Virus record (IMG/VR): IMGVR_UViG_3300033143_002040
Location: 1-35,711 of that record
Strand: one strand, 5' to 3'
Origin: a virus
Length of the DNA: 35,711 nt
Position 1 is the first letter of the stretch. Each line of letters starts with the position of its first letter. This document shows, piece after piece, positions 4,440-32,696 of the stretch. Under the pieces are notes generated by a model. It was not told where the DNA came from, did not search any database, and saw only the letters and a list, made by a program, of their open reading frames with translations. The position numbers were made by a program, and so were the translations under genes.

Positions 4440-4760
4440 ATGGCAAAGCGATATTTACAAATACGAGAACATAAGAACTTGAACATGTACGATTTTGACG
4501 GTTCTCTTGATTCAGTTGCTATGTTTATCAACGATCTTAAGCGTGAATATGGCGAAGATGCTGTCCTTGATTTTTCATATAATTTCGATGATGTTGAGGT
4601 CACGATTGCTTGGAATCGTCAGGAGACGGATCTTGAGCGTGACAAGCGACTCACGAAGGCGCGTAAGGCTCGTGGTGCGAAGAAAATTGCGAAGGCTGCA
4701 ACGGAAGAAGCAGAACGCGCAGAACTCGCACGTTTGCAAGCCAAGTACGCAGCGGAGTAA
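4440..4760 (+). CDS. Unrecognised 106-residue protein with basic helical tail
   Basis: This is the first gene after a consensus promoter. The N-terminal half is mixed (YLQIREHKNLNMYDFDGS, then FINDLKREYGEDAVLDFSY) and looks like a small alpha/beta domain. Residues from about 65 form a long charged helix rich in Ala, Lys and Glu (KARKARGAKKIAKAATEEAE), probably a coiled coil. It is followed after four bases by the RadC-like gene. No family recognised. Confidence 0.65.
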   Translation: MAKRYLQIREHKNLNMYDFDGSLDSVAMFINDLKREYGEDAVLDFSYNFDDVEVTIAWNRQETDLERDKRLTKARKARGAKKIAKAATEEAERAELARLQAKYAAE

Positions 4761-4764
4761 CAGC

Positions 4765-5139
4765 ATGATTCTCGCAGACTTTCTTAACACGATCAAAACA
4801 GCACCAATCGAAAAGTTTGGTGTTGTTTATCATGGTGCTGATCGCAAAACATGCATCGGTGTTAAGATGATTGCAAGCGGTGATTATGGTTCGATTCGCA
4901 ATATTAGTTTGCAGAAAGTTTTAGACGAGGCGTACAGACTCGGTGCTAAAGCAATGACTCTTGTACACAATCATCCTGGGACTGAGCAAGACAAACTACG
5001 TCCAAGTGAAGCTGATTTAGTTACGACTTACGCTATTCACGATGCTGGAAAGGCAAACGGAATTCCAGTTTTGAATCACATTATTTACGGTGCTGACAAC
5101 AGCGCATTTTCTTTCATTCACAATGGAATACATATCTAA
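4765..5139 (+). CDS. RadC/JAB-type metallopeptidase-like protein
   Basis: The 124-residue protein carries the RadC/JAMM metal-binding signature in the form VHNHPGTEQDKLRPSEADL (about residues 71-89), equivalent to H-x-H-P-x-G....P-S-x-x-D, followed by a typical strand (NGIPVLNHIIYG). JAB-domain proteins are zinc-dependent isopeptidases or of unknown role in bacterial RadC. It is shorter than RadC and lacks the N-terminal helix-hairpin-helix part, like other standalone phage and plasmid JAB proteins. The start at 4765 has GGAG 10 bases upstream; a longer overlapping reading from 4495 would duplicate the upstream gene in another frame and is rejected. It overlaps the next gene as TAATG. Confidence 0.75.
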   Translation: MILADFLNTIKTAPIEKFGVVYHGADRKTCIGVKMIASGDYGSIRNISLQKVLDEAYRLGAKAMTLVHNHPGTEQDKLRPSEADLVTTYAIHDAGKANGIPVLNHIIYGADNSAFSFIHNGIHI

Positions 5140-5528
5140 TGGCCAAGCGAACGAAAGTGAAACAGATTGTTACGCGGGATACGATTCGTACAATGCTTCG
5201 TAATCCTAATCCTCGCTACGTCGAAGTTGTTGTAGGTCGTGCGCTAGTCGCATTACTGCAACGTCAGACAGCAGACGAGCAACGTGCAAACGATACTCGC
5301 GAACACAACGGTGTCGGTTTCAGTGGTTGCGATGGTCGCAGCGGGACGCTTACTGCAAAGTCGTTTATAAAGAACGGTGGCTTGCTGGACTGGCAGATTG
5401 CAAGGTGGACGAAGCCCCAAAAGAATGGTTATCCTCGTTTGGCGAAGTATGCCAAGCAATTGAACGAAATCGCATTGGAGAAAGCAGCATTAAGGATCTC
5501 GCAAAGCGAGTTTTCACCGACACATTAA
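5139..5528 (+). CDS. Conserved phage/plasmid-type protein of unknown function
   Basis: A 129-residue basic protein. The central stretch (VVVGRALVALLQRQTADEQ, then HNGVGFSGCDGRSGTLTAKS, then LLDWQIARWTKPQKNGYPRL) resembles a family of unknown function that recurs in phages and mobile DNA; this is from memory. It starts at the A shared with the previous stop (TAATG). A 73-codon open frame on the same strand at 5327-5548 overlaps it almost wholly and is taken as a shadow. Confidence 0.65.
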   Translation: MAKRTKVKQIVTRDTIRTMLRNPNPRYVEVVVGRALVALLQRQTADEQRANDTREHNGVGFSGCDGRSGTLTAKSFIKNGGLLDWQIARWTKPQKNGYPRLAKYAKQLNEIALEKAALRISQSEFSPTH

Positions 5529-8148: not shown

Positions 8149-8828
8149 TGGAATTTCCAACACCTGAACATAATTCATTTATTATTATACCACATAAATT
8201 TGCAGCAACAAGAATTTATGAAGAAAAAGAAGGAACTTCACAAATTTCTTCTACGACAATAACATTAAACATTTCTTGTGCGCCGATAGACGATGGAATA
8301 CTAACTCCCGATGAAATGGGAACAAAAGCAATGATAGGATTTCAACGACTTAAAGTTTGGCTTGAGGGCATTTTAGAATACATCATATTGATTGATAAAG
8401 ATTCGCCTTTGCTAGATATTATGCTAGATAAAACAGACAATCATGTTATGGTAATCCCAGGAAAACCTGATGATGCGTTACTAGCAGTATTATTACATTC
8501 AAAAATTAGTGCTATTACAGAAGAATTATTAGAAATTTATTCAATAGTGTTACAAGCTACAGACACGAATCAAGTTGAAAGAATATACCGATGTCCAGAT
8601 AAACAGTATCCACTACCTGGAATTGAATATTTCGGAAAGGAAACAGCACACGATGTTCCGTGGTGGGAACGACCTACTATTGATGTGTGTGATTTTGAGA
8701 AGACAGACGATGAGGAAAAAATGATCTGGTACAATACAGATCCTCTTGCTGATATAGGAAAAGAATTTTTGACAAATGACACAGAGGCAGATATAATAGT
8801 GTTTGACGCATGGAAAAAGAACAAGTAA
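8148..8828 (+). CDS. Conserved phage protein of unknown function (226 residues)
   Basis: Acidic alpha/beta protein. The N-terminal domain has beta strands (NSFIIIPHKF, SSTTITLNISC) followed by a long helix (AMIGFQRLKVWLEGILEYII). The C-terminal part is acidic and Trp-containing (VPWWERPTIDVCDF). It starts at the A shared with the preceding TAA (TAATG) and overlaps the next gene by 19 bases, which implies co-translation. No catalytic motif is visible. Confidence 0.6.
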   Translation: MEFPTPEHNSFIIIPHKFAATRIYEEKEGTSQISSTTITLNISCAPIDDGILTPDEMGTKAMIGFQRLKVWLEGILEYIILIDKDSPLLDIMLDKTDNHVMVIPGKPDDALLAVLLHSKISAITEELLEIYSIVLQATDTNQVERIYRCPDKQYPLPGIEYFGKETAHDVPWWERPTIDVCDFEKTDDEEKMIWYNTDPLADIGKEFLTNDTEADIIVFDAWKKNK

Positions 8829-10551: not shown

Positions 10552-11475
10552 ATGAAAGAACTCTGGGTAGAAAAATACCGACCAACAAAAATAAGCGAGT
10601 ACGTGTTTCGTGACGCAGCACAAAAAACACAAGTACAAAATTGGATTGATAGCAATGCGATTCCGCATCTATTATTTAGTGGTGGGCCAGGAACAGGCAA
10701 AACTACTCTTGCGAAACTATTACTGAACGAACTCGGTGTTGATGGCGGTGACGTATTATTCATAAACGCATCTTCGGAAACAGGCGTAGGTAATATGCGC
10801 GAGCGTATTTATAACTTTGCAACGCTAATGCCCTACGGAGATTTTCGTTATGTGCTACTTGACGAAGCAGATTATCTGTCACGAAACGCACAAGGAGCAT
10901 TGCGCGGGGTCATGGAGCAGTTTAGCAACTCTTGTAGATTCATACTAACATGTAACTTTTCGTATAAAATTATCGAAGCAGTTCATAGTAGGTGTCAAGG
11001 TTTTCATATTGAGAAACTTGATAAGGTTGAGTTTACTGCGCGAGTCGCAGAGATACTTATAACTGAAGGGGTCGAAGTAGACTTAGAAACACTTGATTTA
11101 TACGTAGCAGCAGAATATCCCGACTTACGCAAATGCATTAATTTGTGCCAGCAGAATTCACAGTCAGGCGCACTCGTAAAACCTCACAGTGAGGATTTAG
11201 GTTCGGCCGACTACAAAGTAGAAATGATTGCATTATTTCGTGATGGCAAAATTGCAGAAGCAAGAAAACTTATTTGTAAGAACGCGGCTGCAAGCGAATA
11301 CGAGGCAATATATCGTCACATGTACGAAAATTTAGAGTACTGGGGTGATGACATAGAGATACAGAAACGTGCTGTGATTGTGATTCGTAATGCACTTGTA
11401 AATCATATAGCGATTGCAGATGCAGAAATAAACTTATCTGCATGTTGTATTGAACTAGAATTATTGAGAATGTAA
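10552..11475 (+). CDS. 44: Sliding-clamp loader large subunit, gp44-type
   Basis: AAA+ ATPase that opens and loads the phage sliding clamp (gp45) at primer ends. The order of motifs is that of RFC small subunits and T4 gp44: N-terminal LWVEKYRPTKISEYV, Walker A GGPGTGKT (44-51), SSETGVGNMRERI, Walker B LLDEADYLS, sensor-1 ILTCNFSYKI and the SRC box HSRCQGF. The length (307) is close to T4 gp44 (319). No gp62-like partner is recognisable downstream, where unrelated small genes follow. Transcribed from its own promoter. Confidence 0.92.
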   Translation: MKELWVEKYRPTKISEYVFRDAAQKTQVQNWIDSNAIPHLLFSGGPGTGKTTLAKLLLNELGVDGGDVLFINASSETGVGNMRERIYNFATLMPYGDFRYVLLDEADYLSRNAQGALRGVMEQFSNSCRFILTCNFSYKIIEAVHSRCQGFHIEKLDKVEFTARVAEILITEGVEVDLETLDLYVAAEYPDLRKCINLCQQNSQSGALVKPHSEDLGSADYKVEMIALFRDGKIAEARKLICKNAAASEYEAIYRHMYENLEYWGDDIEIQKRAVIVIRNALVNHIAIADAEINLSACCIELELLRM

Positions 11476-13082: not shown

Positions 13083-13436
13083 ATGAGCAGCAAAGGTGCT
13101 TATCTAATTTTAACGCATGTCCATCAGCCCATCAACAAGGGTCCAGATAAGGGCAAAATGCAAACACACGAAACTTGTGAATTTGTAGATCGCTATAAAA
13201 CTAAGCATTTGCAAGGCTCTACGATTATTATGGATGTAGTAAAACGCGAATTCATAAAGAACACATACAGGCAAGACGGCCTCTCATATGACCAAGTTGA
13301 GGAGCATGTAATTAAAGGTTATGCTGACAAATATACAAAATTTTTAGAGCTTGTGGGAGCACCGATTCCAGAAGCTTTACTTCTAGATAAAGAAGATATG
13401 GAAAAACTAATTGAACAAACCAAGGAAGAAGAATGA
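13083..13436 (+). CDS. Unrecognised 117-residue protein
   Basis: First gene after a strong promoter. N-terminal strand GAYLILTHVHQPIN, a Gly/Lys/His-rich segment, then helical acidic sequence (KFLELVGAPIPEALLLDKED) ending in EEE. The stop overlaps the ATG of the AAA+ ATPase (ATGA), so the two are probably translationally coupled and may work together. No family recognised. Confidence 0.6.
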   Translation: MSSKGAYLILTHVHQPINKGPDKGKMQTHETCEFVDRYKTKHLQGSTIIMDVVKREFIKNTYRQDGLSYDQVEEHVIKGYADKYTKFLELVGAPIPEALLLDKEDMEKLIEQTKEEE

Positions 13437-14518
13437 CAAAAGAAATAGATGACCTAAAAGAGCTACAAGAACTTACTAAAGACAACGATGAAACAGAAGT
13501 TGGTGAGTCTGATAGTCGTAGTTTTGCTACGCCAGACCCAACTTATGATGAGTATGAATGTGCAGAAGAAGAAGAAGGTACGCTAAAGGAAAACGCCCGA
13601 CAATGGGCAAAGGTCGGTGATGCTTATTTTCCAGCAGATATGACCGCAGATACTCTTCCTTCAGGTCAATACAGCATTGATTATTCTCACAGCAGAGGAC
13701 TATATTTTTCTCCAAAACCAATTAATCTTGATGATTTGCTTATTTTGCCCGATAGCGCGTCAGAAGAAATAATCAATAATATTGAAGAATTCTGGAAGAA
13801 TGAACACCTGTTCCGCAAACTTGGATTTCTATGGAAGCGCGGAGTATTGCTTTACGGTCCAGCGGGAAGTGGCAAAACTTCTACTCTACAGCTAATTACA
13901 AAGAAAGTTGTTGATCGAGGCGGCATCGCAGTTTACGTTAAAGAGCCAAAAGTAACAGCGCAAGGCCTAGAAATGTTACGTAAAATTGAACCTACTCGTC
14001 CAGTAATTGTATTGGTTGAAGATGTAGACGCAATTCAACGAACCTACGGCGAAGCAGATATGCTTGCATTGCTTGATGGTGATTTGCAAATTGACAACGT
14101 AGTATTCATTGCTACAACAAACTATCCTGAAAAGCTTGATAAGCGCATGGTCAATCGTCCAAGTCGTTTTGATATTGTACGCAAAATTGGAATGCCTACA
14201 GCAGAGGCACGTACAATTTATCTAACAGAACGAAACGAACGCATTGCAGGCACAGATGAACTTATTGAGTGGGTCGCTGCAACAGATAAATTCTCTATTG
14301 CACATCTTAAAGAACTTATTGTTTCTGTAGAAGCATTGGGGCAAGGGTTTAATGATACGATTGACAGACTACGAGTTATGATTGATACAACACCTGCTAG
14401 TACAGATGATGATGAATCAAAAGGCATAGGCTTTATGGCAGGTGCTGAAAAAAAGTCAGAAAGGGCGGCGACGACGGCGGCAAAGCCATCAACCCCGCCA
14501 GTCTCAAACAACTCATAA
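13433..14518 (+). CDS. AAA+ ATPase with an apparent -1 frameshift extension
   Basis: An acidic, probably disordered N-terminus (residues 1-50) precedes an AAA module with Walker A GPAGSGKT (142-149), Walker B VLVEDVDAI and sensor-1 IATTNYPEKLDKRMVNRPSR (the arginine-finger region). The pattern is that of the BCS1/FtsH-like AAA group, which unfolds or remodels partners. In the zero frame the chain stops after 361 residues in a low-complexity Ala/Thr/Pro tail. At 14449-14455 the sequence A AAA AAG could shift ribosomes by -1; that frame stays open to TGA 14554-14556, giving 374 residues ending in LRPPKKKR and overlapping the next ATG as ATGA. Either programmed frameshifting or an assembly or mutation error explains this. 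Confidence 0.85.
   Translation: MTKEIDDLKELQELTKDNDETEVGESDSRSFATPDPTYDEYECAEEEEGTLKENARQWAKVGDAYFPADMTADTLPSGQYSIDYSHSRGLYFSPKPINLDDLLILPDSASEEIINNIEEFWKNEHLFRKLGFLWKRGVLLYGPAGSGKTSTLQLITKKVVDRGGIAVYVKEPKVTAQGLEMLRKIEPTRPVIVLVEDVDAIQRTYGEADMLALLDGDLQIDNVVFIATTNYPEKLDKRMVNRPSRFDIVRKIGMPTAEARTIYLTERNERIAGTDELIEWVAATDKFSIAHLKELIVSVEALGQGFNDTIDRLRVMIDTTPASTDDDESKGIGFMAGAEKKSERAATTAAKPSTPPVSNNS
14449..14455 (+). promoter_or_regulatory. Slippery heptamer A AAA AAG (candidate -1 frameshift site)
   Basis: In the zero frame the codons are GCT GAA AAA AAG TCA, so A AAA AAG lies in the correct register for tandem slippage, the same heptamer as in Escherichia coli dnaX. Upstream lies AGGTG (14440-14444), a possible stimulatory Shine-Dalgarno, and downstream is GC-rich sequence with GGCGG (14464-14468) able to pair with CCGCC (14494-14498). 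The shifted frame ends exactly on the ATG of the next gene. Confidence 0.6.
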
Positions 14519-14552
14519 AGAAATACGGCTTACGCCCGCCGAAAAAGAAACG

Positions 14553-15158
14553 ATGAATGATAAAATTATATTAACTGATGCAGATGGATGTTTATTCAAC
14601 TGGAACAATACGTTTAATGAATTTATGATTAATCGTGGATACAAAATTGTGCCAGGTGAGGAGGAAAATTATTCTGTTAGGGAACGATTTGGTTTGTCTC
14701 CTGGAACTAAAATGAATTTCATCAAAGAATTTAATCACTCAAATCGAATTGCCGAATTGCCTCCACTCGCAGATGCACAAGAATATGTTGCTAAACTGAA
14801 CAATGAAGGCTATAAGTTTATTGTAATTACAAGTCTCAGTGAAAAGCCTAGCGCATATGACTACAGAATGCATAATCTTAAAGAACACTTTGGTGATGCA
14901 ATCATAGGTTTACATTGCTTACGAATCGGCGTACATAAAGGTGAAAAATTAAAAGAGTGGGAAGGCACTGATATGTTTTGGATCGAAGATCACGTATCCA
15001 ACGCAGTTGCAGGCGCGAAGCTTGGACTTCGTGCGGTAGTCATCGACCACGTATACAATACACGATATTGCGAAGACGATCACTTACTTTATGCTCGCAC
15101 AACACAAGAAACACCTTGGGCAGATATTTACGAACTTGTTAAAGGGGCAGAAGAATGA
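14553..15158 (+). CDS. HAD-family hydrolase, deoxyribonucleotidase-like
   Basis: HAD phosphatases use two aspartates in a DxD motif; here LTDADGCLFNW has Asp9 and Asp11. Motif II is FIVITSLSEK, and the acidic motif IV is WIEDHVSNAV. The chain is 201 residues, in the range of 5'(3')-deoxyribonucleotidases, and the aspartate-following loop with Trp and Asn resembles that group. A dNMP phosphatase role is inferred, not shown. The start at 14553 forms ATGA with the frameshift product stop of the ATPase; the ATG at 14442 is rejected as it lies wholly inside the ATPase gene. Stop overlaps the next gene. Confidence 0.75.
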   Translation: MNDKIILTDADGCLFNWNNTFNEFMINRGYKIVPGEEENYSVRERFGLSPGTKMNFIKEFNHSNRIAELPPLADAQEYVAKLNNEGYKFIVITSLSEKPSAYDYRMHNLKEHFGDAIIGLHCLRIGVHKGEKLKEWEGTDMFWIEDHVSNAVAGAKLGLRAVVIDHVYNTRYCEDDHLLYARTTQETPWADIYELVKGAEE

Positions 15159-16023: not shown

Positions 16024-17133
16024 ATGAGAATCGAAGATTCAGTAAAACTAGATTACAGTGATGTATTGATACGTCCTAAGCGAAGCACATTAGTATCACG
16101 TAAAGAAGTAGATTTAGAACGTGAATTTGTTTTCCGTTATTCAGATGTAAAATATAAAGGCATCCCGATCATGGCTGCTAATATGGATACAACAGGCACA
16201 TTCGAAATGGCTCGCGCACTACTTAATTTTAATATGTTTACGTGCATACATAAACACTATGATATGAGTGGTTGGCGTGAGGGGCTTGTACTTGATACTG
16301 GAGCCGATCCTAGTGTTAAAAACTTAGCTATTTCAACTGGCATATCTAATACTGATTTTCTAAAAACAGTAGATATTATCTATGCATTTACAGAGATAAA
16401 CTATATCTGTGTTGACGTTGCTAATGGTTACACAGAAACATTTGTACAATTTATTCGTAAAATGCGCAAGAAATTTCCCAATAAAGTAATCATTGCAGGT
16501 AATGTAGTCACAGCAGATATGACAGAGGCACTTATATTGGCAGGTGCTGACATAGTGAAGGTGGGCATAGGCCCAGGAAGTGTCTGTACAACACGCAAGA
16601 AAACAGGCGTCGGCTATCCTCAACTATCAGCAGTTATTGAGTGTGCAGATGCAGCACACGGATTGAAAGGTCTTATTGTTGCAGATGGTGGGTGTACTGG
16701 CCCTGGTGATGTTGCAAAATCGTTTGCAGCAGGCGCAGATTTTGTAATGCTCGGCGGAATGTTAGCAGGCCACGCTGAAGGCGGCGGCTCAATTATATCA
16801 GGCTCAGGAAGGAAACTTGGCAGCGACACAGCACTCGATACTTACGACTTGGGCTACGGAGATATGTTTGTAGAGTTTTACGGTATGAGTTCTGAAACTG
16901 CACAGAACAAACATGGAGACGGACTTACAGGCTATCGTGCAAGCGAAGGCAAGCGTGTTTTGATTCCTTACAAAGGTAAAGTTGAAAATACTGTGAAAGA
17001 TATACTAGGCGGGGTTCGATCAGCATGTACATATACTGGCAGCATATCACTCAAGGAATTGTCAAAGCGTACAACGTTTGTTCGCGTCAACAATCAGCTT
17101 AATAATGTCTATGGTACAAATAGTGATGGATAG
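16024..17133 (+). CDS. guaC: GMP reductase
   Basis: NADPH-dependent reductive deamination of GMP to IMP and ammonia, linking guanine back to the adenine branch of purine salvage. Residue order matches Escherichia coli Gua[36 protein letters not shown], then [14 protein letters not shown] with the catalytic Cys188, [31 protein letters not shown] and [16 protein letters not shown], and the ending [19 protein letters not shown]. It is 369 residues versus 347 in E. coli, with extra sequence after the MLGGMLAGH segment and at the C-terminus. It is GuaC rather than GuaB because no CBS domains are present. Probably shifts purine pools toward the AT-rich phage genome; that part is inference. Confidence 0.95.
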
Positions 17134-18323: not shown

Positions 18324-19049
18324 TCAATCTGCATCCCCATAACAGCGTAAAACCTCCTCCACTATAGGGTCGCGTTCGATATGATCCCGTGTGAAGTTAG
18401 TCAGCGAAATGGTGTGTGAATTGCTGACCTTAAGTTTCTTAAAGAAATCGTGTAAACCATTTTCCCTCCTTAAGTCGGACTGATTCAAGTCTCCTGTGAT
18501 ATACATGCGTGTACCATCACCAATGCGGGTTAGAGCCATCTTCATTTGTGCTGATGTAGTGTTTTGTGCCTCGTCAAAAATAATGACACAATCTTTGAAA
18601 GTTCGGCCTCTCATAAAAGCAAGCGGACAAATCTCAATTGTGCCTTCTTCAAGCATTAGTGAAATCTCTTTAGGGCTATAATATTCCTCAAATACATCCA
18701 TAAGTGGACGTACCCAAGGAGCCATCTTTTTATTAATGTCGCCAGGCAAAAATCCGTGATCTTCGTCTACGGTAACTGCTGGGCGCGTAATGACCACGCG
18801 TGATACGTGACCATTCATAAATTCTTGTACTGCTTTTTGTACTGCTAGGTAGGTCTTGCCCGTTCCTGCGGGTCCTGTTGCGAACACAATACGTTGACTT
18901 TGATCGTGTAGATTCGCGATGTATTCCTCTTGTGCAATATTGCGAGGAATTAGTTTTACATAGTTCTTACGTTTTTGATTGATCTCCTTCCGTGGTTCTT
19001 CTTGGATGCGAATGATGCGCCCGTTCCTTTTCTTTTTTGTTCTTGCCAT
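18324..19049 (-). CDS. phoH: PhoH-family ATPase
   Basis: PhoH proteins are P-loop ATPases, probably RNA-associated helicase-like, and are widespread in marine phages. This 241-residue form has FATGPAGTGKTYLAVQKAVQ (Walker A 59-66), the PhoH signature block PLAFMRGRTFKDCVIIFDEA with Walker B, and QNTTSAQMKMALTRIGDGTR followed by ITGDLNQSD. A basic N-terminal tail (ARTKKKRNGRIIRI) precedes the domain. GGAG lies about 10 bases before the ATG. It is transcribed away from the late block, in opposite orientation to most of the window. The exact substrate is unknown even in better-studied hosts. Confidence 0.93.
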   Translation of the reverse strand: MARTKKKRNGRIIRIQEEPRKEINQKRKNYVKLIPRNIAQEEYIANLHDQSQRIVFATGPAGTGKTYLAVQKAVQEFMNGHVSRVVITRPAVTVDEDHGFLPGDINKKMAPWVRPLMDVFEEYYSPKEISLMLEEGTIEICPLAFMRGRTFKDCVIIFDEAQNTTSAQMKMALTRIGDGTRMYITGDLNQSDLRRENGLHDFFKKLKVSNSHTISLTNFTRDHIERDPIVEEVLRCYGDAD

Positions 19050-23156: not shown

Positions 23157-25481
23157 ATGAGTCTGGGAAATAGCGAAAACGGCGACGAGCCGAATCGTAA
23201 TAATGAAGCAGTAAATAATGTCATGGAGCGAGCGCACATATTCGCTACTGAAAACTACCATGAGTACGTAACCATCGAACATTTACTGTGGTCTCTCTTG
23301 CATGAAAAAGATTTGCAAAGAATTCTTACGGACATCGGTGGCCGTCCAAATATCATTCGTAACGAAGTCGAGAATCATTTAAATACAGCTAACCTAGAAG
23401 TGCCAGTTGAAGCACAGATTGGATACACAGGTGCAGATCACACGACTGCACTAACTCGCGTATTTCAACGAGCTTTGACACAGTATATTTTCGCTGGGCG
23501 GCCAGAGATTACAACATACGGTTTACTTCTAAGCATAATGAATGAAGATCATAGTCACGCAGTTTTCTTTATACAAAAAGGAAGAATTTCGCGTAATAAA
23601 TTAGTAGAATATCTCAAAGAATACGATGGTAGTCAGAGTGACGCAGAGCTTGATGATGCGCTAGAAGAATACTGTCGCAACCTTAATGACGAATCCAAGG
23701 ACGGACTTATTGATCCGATTGTTGGTCGCGAGGAAGAAATTGCTGATACAATTGAGATATTGGCACGGCGCAAAAAGAATAATGTTTGTTATGTCGGACA
23801 CCCAGGCGTAGGTAAGACTGCACTAGCGGAAGGTCTTGCTAAAAAAATTGTTGACGGTGAAGTTCCTAAAGCACTTGAAGCTAAAGAAGTGTACAGTCTT
23901 GATATTGGCGCGCTGGTCGCTGGTACAAAGTACCGCGGCGATTTCGAGGAACGCCTAAAGAAAGTACTCAAAAGCATTCAAAAGAAAGGTAATGTAATTC
24001 TATTCATTGATGAAATACACATGATTATGGGCGCAGGCACAGCATCACAGGGTACAATGGACGCAGGAAACATTCTCAAACCTATGCTAGCAAAGGGAGA
24101 ATTACGCTGCATCGGTGCTACAACATTCGATGAATACGAGACTCACTTTGAAAAAGACAAAGCACTTAAGCGTAGATTCGGTAAGTATGAAGTAAAAGAG
24201 CCGAGTGTAAAGAATACTAAGCGAATTCTCAAAGGACTCGCAAAATACTATGAAAAATTTCATGGCGTGAAGTATGAAAAAGGCACACTCATCGCGGCTG
24301 TTGACTTATCCGAACGTTATATGAAGAATAAATTTCGACCTGACAAAGCAATTGACATCATGGATTTGGCTGGAGCTAAGGCTAAGCTTGCAGACGAACC
24401 AGTAGTTGATATGGATATGATTATCAAAACTACTTCTAAGCTTGCAAAGATTCCTACAGATATGATTGACATTAGAGAAAATGATGCCATCTCAACTCTG
24501 AATTCCAAACTCAAAGATCGTGTATATGGTCAGGCAACAGCAATTGAAACTTTAGTAGAAGCTATTGAAATCAGTAAGAGTGGCTTACGTGATGAATGCA
24601 AGCCAATCGGTTCTTATCTCTTACTTGGTCCTACTGGAGTCGGCAAAACTTATCTTGCAAAAGAATTATCTGAGGCACTCGGTGTTGAACTTGTTCGGTT
24701 CGATATGTCTGAATACCAAGAGAAACACTCTGTTTCTAAATTGATCGGAGCTCCTCCAGGTTATGTTGGGCACGGCGAAGGTGAGGCTGGCAGTGGACAG
24801 TTGATTAATAAAGTCGAAAACAATCCGAACTGCGTATTGCTACTTGATGAAATTGAAAAAGCAGCACCAGAAGTTACACAAGTACTTCTACAGGTTATGG
24901 ATGATGGTCGTTTGACTAGCAGCACAGGCAAAACGATTGATTTTACAAACGTAATACTCTTAATGTCATCTAATTTAGGTGCAGCAGAGGGTGAGAAACT
25001 TAATATCGGATTCGGGGATCAAGAAAAAGTTGGCGAAGATGATGCAGCAGTTAAACGTTTCTTCGCACCTGAGTTCCGCAATAGAATAGACGGCATAATC
25101 AAGTTTAACAAACTTGGCATTGACGAAATGAAGCTTATTGTTAGTCGAGAAATCGACAAACTAAATGATATGCTTGCTGACAAGAAAATTTCTGTAACTT
25201 GTATGGCAGCAGCTAAGAAATTACTCGCAACAGAAGGCTACGATCCAAAAATGGGTGCAAGGCCAATGGCAAGATTGATTCAAGAAAAAGTCAAAAAGCC
25301 AATTTCGAAAGAGATTTTGTTTGGTGATTTACAGAATGGCGGTAGAGTTAAGGTCGGTGTTGAAGACGGTGAATTGAGTCTAACAATAACTCCTGCGAAA
25401 GTAGCACTAATCGCGCCAACTGTTGATGAAGTATTAGTAAACGAAGTAACAATTAACAAAGAGAACCCCACACAAGACTGA
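23157..25481 (+). CDS. clpA: ClpA-type AAA+ unfoldase
   Basis: 774 residues, two AAA+ modules. The N-domain is ClpN-like ([20 protein letters not shown]). Walker A of module 1 is GHPGVGKT (about 215-222) with Walker [13 protein letters not shown]; module 2 has GPTGVGKT (about 491-498) and Walker [10 protein letters not shown]. The middle coiled-coil of ClpB is missing, so this is ClpA-like. The ClpP-docking loop reads NIGFGDQEK (about 616-624), the I-G-F/L signature. A C-terminal segment [20 protein letters not shown] matches ClpA well. GGAG precedes the start. It may direct host ClpP at chosen proteins; no phage ClpP is seen in the window. Confidence 0.93.
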
Positions 25482-32184: not shown

Positions 32185-32210
32185 TAATTAATCAATAATT
32201 GGAGAACAAT

Positions 32211-32696
32211 ATGAGCGAGAAAAGTAAAGCTGCAAAAGCAGCAGCAGAAGCGGCCAAGCATGCCGCAAAAGCAGCAAACGGAACTGCTGGTCAAGCACGA
32301 AATGAAGCTAAGGAAAGCGGAATAGATACAGCAACAGCAGCAGCCGAAGCAGCAGAACATGCAGCAGATCGTTCTGAAGCAGAAGCAAGAAAAGCTGACG
32401 CAGCAGCACAACAGGCAGAAGCAGAAGCTAGGAAAGAAGCCGCTAAACCTGAAGATAAAGAAGACGCAAAGACAGCACGGGAACACGCAAACGAAGCTGC
32501 AATTGCAGCTACAAACGCACACGGACACGCAAACGACGCAATTGCTGACGCACCAAACCCACCAGTGTATCCAGCACCAACACCAAGAAAGAAAAGTGAT
32601 ATACGCAAAAAAGCTATCATCATCGGTGGTGCAATGATCGCAGGCGCATACATACAAACTTATGTATGGCCGTATATTTCAACATACATTCAGTAA
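32211..32696 (+). CDS. Ala-rich coiled-coil protein with C-terminal membrane anchor
   Basis: ATG 32211 has GGAGAACA upstream; an in-frame TTG at 32199 overlaps that binding site and is rejected. The protein is a long Ala/Glu/Lys-rich helix (AAAEAAKHAAKAANGTAGQA; AEAAEHAADRSEAEARKADA), then a Pro-rich PNPPVYPAPTPRKK linker, a basic KKSDIRKK and one C-terminal membrane helix (AIIIGGAMIAGAYIQTYVWP). Such a tail-anchored rod could be a lysis, membrane-binding or virion-tip element. It is unrecognised. The next gene block is preceded by a terminator. Confidence 0.6.
   Translation: MSEKSKAAKAAAEAAKHAAKAANGTAGQARNEAKESGIDTATAAAEAAEHAADRSEAEARKADAAAQQAEAEARKEAAKPEDKEDAKTAREHANEAAIAATNAHGHANDAIADAPNPPVYPAPTPRKKSDIRKKAIIIGGAMIAGAYIQTYVWPYISTYIQ

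Follow-up and report, generated by a model that had tools for sequence, protein, structure and literature searches.

The ATPase gene and its overlapping reading frames

The window analysed here is a 35,711-nucleotide stretch of DNA (positions 1 to 35,711 of IMG/VR virus record IMGVR_UViG_3300033143_002040) and contains a gene for an AAA+ ATPase whose 3′ end is overlapped by a second open frame that runs into the start of the next gene. The features of the locus, numbered from the first nucleotide of the window, are listed below.

13433..14518, + strand: AAA+ ATPase gene, zero frame, 361 aa, with a Bcs1/YjoB/Cdc48-type AAA domain (Pfam, structure and sequence comparison)
14440..14444, + strand: Shine-Dalgarno-like AGGTG, possible stimulator upstream of the slippery site (sequence; AGGKG class)
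14449..14455, + strand: slippery heptamer A AAA AAG in the zero-frame register (read from the sequence; kept in the diverged relatives L002 and L003)
14455..14556, + strand: −1 frame extension, 33 codons plus TGA, predicted to give a 374-aa isoform (homologue in L002)
14456..14518, + strand: zero-frame tail SERAATTAAKPSTPPVSNNS and stop codon TAA (not conserved as protein)
14464..14499, + strand: predicted GC-rich hairpin, possible stimulator, beginning 8 nt downstream of the heptamer (folding)
14553..15158, + strand: next gene, phrog_420, HAD/5′-nucleotidase-like, with a weak Shine-Dalgarno sequence (SD) of its own (ATG overlaps the TGA of the −1 frame)

The heptamer is formed by a run of seven A (14448–14454) followed by G14455, and it is in register because the zero-frame codons read GAA AAA AAG. 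In the zero frame, translation reaches a stop codon at 14516–14518 after a tail rich in Ser, Ala, Thr and Pro. The −1 frame after the heptamer (VRKGGDDGGKAINPASLKQLIKKYGLRPPKKKR) is open for 33 codons, which specify a Gly-rich linker, a basic helix-like stretch (LKQLIKKYG) and a Lys/Arg-rich end, and it closes at a TGA (14554–14556) that overlaps the ATG (14553) of the next ORF. This is the arrangement proposed in the initial annotation: the position and register of the heptamer hold to the base, the zero-frame product does end at 14518, and translation confirms both the 33 open −1 codons and the placement of their TGA on the next ATG. The further claim that the ATGA overlap is used throughout the genome stands in part, with 4-nt overlaps at 8 of 47 neighbouring gene pairs and 1-nt overlaps at another 8 of the 47.

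The encoded protein has a Walker A motif (GPAGSGKT) and a Walker B motif (VEDVD) and matches the Pfam AAA family (PF00004; 9e-14). Its nearest solved relatives by sequence are Cdc48/VCP, Afg2 and YjoB. An AlphaFold model with a mean pLDDT of 83, in which the zero-frame tail from about residue 320 is of low confidence, gave Bcs1 and YjoB as the top fold matches in Foldseek (E 3e-14 to the Bcs1 AAA domain), mainly over the AAA domain (query TM about 0.5). From this predicted fold and the sequence comparison, the ATPase is classed as a Bcs1/YjoB/Cdc48-type AAA+ protein whose likeness to these families lies mainly in the AAA domain.

The phage is T4-like, with genes for a DNA polymerase, a baseplate wedge protein and a gp44-like clamp loader, the last being a separate gene at 10552–11475. 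The affinity to Cdc48, Afg2, YjoB and Bcs1, together with this gp44-like gene, rules out a clamp loader or dnaX homologue. The heptamer is that of E. coli dnaX, as first annotated; since the clamp loader is a separate gene, the ATPase does not count as a relative of dnaX, and the two share the heptamer by convergence. A tail assembly chaperone of the G/G-T kind was also ruled out, the matches being solely to AAA/ATPase families. Elsewhere the window encodes an IMP dehydrogenase/GMP reductase-like protein (16024–17133) and a ClpA/ClpB-like double AAA+ protein (23157–25481). No tRNA genes were found in the phage genome record, although an RtcB-like tRNA splicing ligase is encoded in it (L204, 6432–7700).

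The string AAAAAAG shows no enrichment in the window (13 occurrences, against 16.6 expected), and across the genome record (126,561 bases, ~31,000 codons) the in-register spelling A AAA AAG is uncommon, at 4 of 149 Lys-Lys pairs. Of the 48 genes of the window, two others also have a −1 frame that stays open to the next start from a point 20 codons ahead of their stop, in both cases over shorter lengths, and because of these two a programmed event could not be proved from the anatomy alone. The strong evidence comes instead from conservation among relatives. A scan of the remaining genome record turned up no similar site with comparable support.

Several other sites in the phage have some of these elements. 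At 5139–5528 of the window lies a gene whose stop is crossed by an open −1 frame, which closes at the start of the next gene (5548). At 32199–32696 and 32359–32637, a second in-register AAAAAAG (32607) lies in a 92-aa ORF; the −1 frame there is open for 27 codons and resembles a membrane segment (AIIIGGAMIAGAYIQTYVWPYISTYIQ), and the ORF in that frame overlaps the whole gene, such that either ORF could be the real one. In two genes, at 18324–19049 of the window (− strand) and at 8740–9465 of L002 (− strand), A AAA AAG occurs in register a few codons into the gene, probably just as lysine codons close to the start.

Conservation of the heptamer and evolution of the −1 frame

Three IMG/VR relatives of the locus were compared with the window: L001 (an identical contig), L002 (80% protein identity) and L003 (73%). 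As L001 is 100% identical to the window over 11 kb, it provides no independent support, and the evidence for conservation therefore comes from three lineages in all, the window, L002 and L003. The neighbouring genes in L002 and L003 are the same as in the window. Both of these nearest diverged homologues, the comparison called for in the initial annotation, have an open −1 frame and an in-register heptamer soon after a conserved IGF motif (GGA AAA AAG in L002 and CGA AAA AAG in L003). The A-run is seven long in the window and six in L002 and L003, and so the shared feature is the heptamer in register, not the run length.

The heptamer is kept beyond what the amino acids require. The residue preceding Lys-Lys is Glu in the window, Gly in L002 and Arg in L003, and the third base of its codon is A in all three. 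Identity at four-fold sites of the ATPase gene is 40–56% among the three sequences, and 9 of 331 in-register heptamers are invariant among them; in the DNA alignment the slippery heptamer stands as an invariant block inside a variable tail. Given Lys-Lys, the chance that all three would be spelled A AAA AAG is ~7e-4 from codon usage, a figure that treats the lineages as independent, which is only roughly true given their divergence at synonymous sites.

The −1 extensions of the window and L002 align with a score of 54 against a shuffled mean of 8.6, a score reached in none of 5000 shuffles; the alignment of the two zero-frame tails is not significant against shuffles (p 0.08). Because DNA homology alone could explain the alignment of the extensions, the substitutions separating the two lineages were re-dealt over the window sequence. 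On an alignment fitted to the −1 frame, the protein score in that frame exceeds expectation (p 0.0014), and the zero and +1 frames give p values of 0.79 and 0.68. Repeating the test on a frame-neutral DNA alignment gives 0.022 for the −1 frame, which is moderate, 0.96 for the zero frame and 0.56 for the +1 frame. The substitutions between the window and L002 thus respect the −1 frame only, as would be expected under protein-level selection on the extension. Codon usage does not cleanly separate the frames, since the extension is atypical in all of them.

The −1 frame of L002 also ends with a TGA on the next ATG, in the form ATGA. In L003 it runs on for 45 open codons and stops 19 nt within the next ORF, which starts with TTG, and the L003 extension has no significant similarity to that of the window or L002. 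Taken with the conservation of the heptamer, the protein-like evolution of the extension between the window and L002 supports the probable programmed −1 frameshift first proposed for this gene.

Beyond these lineages, the homologous protein ends near the point of the heptamer and has no such extension. This is the case in 77 more distant viral loci (some of them near-duplicates), in L200 and in the more distant homologues within an alignment of 42 members. Because these lack it, the feature appears from the sequences compared to be specific to one clade, in which it arose or was kept. In searches of other collections, homologues in a phage collection are all below 60% identity, two further viral scans returned no new close relative except L200, and scans of bacterial and archaeal genomes returned nothing and then one distant AAA+ relative (38% identity). 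A search with the −1 extension joined to the start of the next gene matched only relatives of the next gene; L126 spans the boundary, and the upstream protein that it overlaps is unrelated.

A-rich heptamers near the stop were also seen in the tails of L058, L059, L075 and L081. In L058 and L075 what lies in the −1 frame is simply the following gene, overlapping by the usual ATGA, and the heptamer is absent from the relatives of L075. In L081 (about 4450–4640) and L059 (about 4444–4510) the A-rich heptamer is in register a few codons before the stop, with −1 frames of 56 and 20 codons, respectively, and without a supporting relative.

Candidate stimulators flank the heptamer. Upstream, the stretch with AGGTG is predicted to form a duplex with the anti-SD of −9.2 kcal/mol, and AGGKG is an SD-like class treated as a proven stimulator (PMC4066793). 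The SD-like element suggested in the initial annotation is present in the window (AGGTG) and L003 (GGTGG), both sequences falling into such stimulator classes of that paper, and missing from L002. The GC-rich pairing sequence suggested downstream is recovered as a predicted hairpin in all three lineages, starting 8 nt (window), 7 nt (L002) and 4 nt (L003) after the heptamer, against an expected spacing of 5–8 nt. The stretches after the heptamer are among the most stable 1.7, 4.0 and 4.5% of local windows in the window, L002 and L003, respectively. Against shuffled sequences the hairpins have z values of −2.5, −1.6 and −0.5 in the same order, of which only that of the window is significant, and the GC content after the heptamer (53–60%, compared with ~40% for the genome) accounts for much of the stability. 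The hairpin and SD-like elements are supportive of frameshift stimulation, not conclusive. In E. coli, A AAA AAG ranks with the −1 motifs of highest efficiency (PMC4066793).

Alternative explanations for the overlapping frames

We consider it probable, with good confidence, that programmed −1 ribosomal frameshifting in this gene yields 361- and 374-residue isoforms, a reading drawn from comparative sequence analysis, and weighed it against other explanations. A one-base error in the A-run, which would leave the true gene with a single frame, had been raised at the outset. The site is a homopolymer, and the exact match in L001 is not independent; however, the same frame relation is found in two diverged contigs with six A, so that the same error would be needed in all. 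A sequencing or assembly error is effectively excluded on this ground, and with two diverged relatives keeping the same signal the site looks selected.

Transcriptional slippage would have RNA polymerase drop or add an A within the run, a fraction of the mRNA then being read normally in the −1 frame. The window does have a run of seven A, and both routes are found among bacterial dnaX genes (PMC3711429). Slippage is generally tied to runs longer than seven (PMC3711429), and just six A occupy the same place in the relatives; since six suffice there, slippage is improbable. What is conserved is instead the heptamer in register, with a hairpin at a distance suited to the ribosome.

The −1 frame might also be open by chance or be a relic, the 361-residue zero-frame protein being the sole meaningful product. 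Consistent with this, 28% of simulated L002 sequences keep the −1 frame open, the L003 extension does not align and, as described above, an open −1 frame reaching the next start is also seen in two other genes of the window. Constraint is nonetheless detected in the −1 frame and not in the zero frame, and the third-base A is kept under three different residues, leaving an accidental or relic frame with very little probability.

A last explanation accepts the shift and differs over its main purpose, which would be to deliver ribosomes to the start of the next gene, the tail itself mattering little. Since it also assumes ribosomal frameshifting, its weight lies within that of frameshifting. The −1 stop overlaps the next start in all three lineages, as ATGA in two of them, the zero-frame stop of the window lies 34 nt upstream of the next start, and the SD of the next gene ranks 46 of 49. 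Because this SD is weak and a shifted ribosome would stop on the ATG, coupling to the next gene is possible, either as a purpose of the shift or as a side effect. As the main purpose it seems rather unlikely: the extension is itself conserved as protein, which coupling would not need, and weak SDs are also found at some other genes of the window.

Relation to known systems and proposed role

Both dnaX and insertion sequences are known to frameshift at A AAA AAG, and in phages the best-known frameshifts belong to genes for virion assembly, capsid and tail. ChlD and ChlI are, like the phage protein, AAA+ proteins. The phage gene resembles E. coli dnaX (tau/gamma) in its heptamer, upstream SD-like element, predicted downstream hairpin and AAA+ ATPase product with two predicted C-terminal forms, and it resembles the Chlorobium-type (reversed) dnaX in that the longer product would need the shift (PMC3711429, PMC5009743). 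It differs from dnaX in encoding a Bcs1/YjoB/Cdc48-like ATPase that is not a clamp loader, and in that the added tail is just 33 residues. With lambda G/G-T and the capsid and tail frameshifts it shares a late slippery site in a phage gene and a −1 C-terminal extension (PMC5009743), but the product is an ATPase and has no match to tail or capsid families. In the magnesium chelatase case, frameshifting makes two products from one chelatase subunit gene, chlD (PMC9227772); chlD, however, belongs to another AAA+ branch, is cellular, and yields two subunits of very different length.

Frameshifting in AAA+ genes is accordingly established for dnaX (PMC3711429, PMC5009743) and chlD (PMC9227772). Bcs1 and B. 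subtilis YjoB are the closest in the AAA domain, by sequence for YjoB and as top fold matches for both, with matches mainly over that domain. A frameshift with comparable support was not found in this family in the 77 other viral loci, and the literature searched, of partial coverage, contained no report of one in a phage Bcs1/YjoB-type ATPase. The candidate is a known mechanism in a gene family in which frameshifting was previously unknown to us.

The proposed model predicts that ribosomes translating the AAA+ gene will pause at A AAA AAG, assisted by the downstream hairpin and perhaps by AGGTG, and that in some passages, however frequent, the two tRNA-Lys will re-pair one base back, onto AAA AAA. 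Unshifted ribosomes would complete the 361-residue protein with its Ser/Ala/Thr/Pro tail. Shifted ribosomes would produce the 374-residue protein, in which a Gly-rich linker leads into a short basic helix-like stretch and then a Lys/Arg end, and would terminate on the ATG of the gene that follows. The likely outcome would be an ATPase ring in which only some subunits have the basic tail, which may dock a partner or nucleic acid. That the one slippery site sets both the share of basic-tailed subunits and the delivery of ribosomes to the next start is a more tentative suggestion, which we think doubtful.

The candidate is conserved and lies in a phage ring ATPase that belongs to none of the known virion families, with the dnaX heptamer used independently in a different AAA+ clade. 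If the model is correct, gene callers would assign the wrong tail to this protein, reporting the unconserved zero-frame end and missing the conserved −1 end, and the finding would suggest that frameshifting is a recurrent route to ATPase rings with two kinds of subunit.
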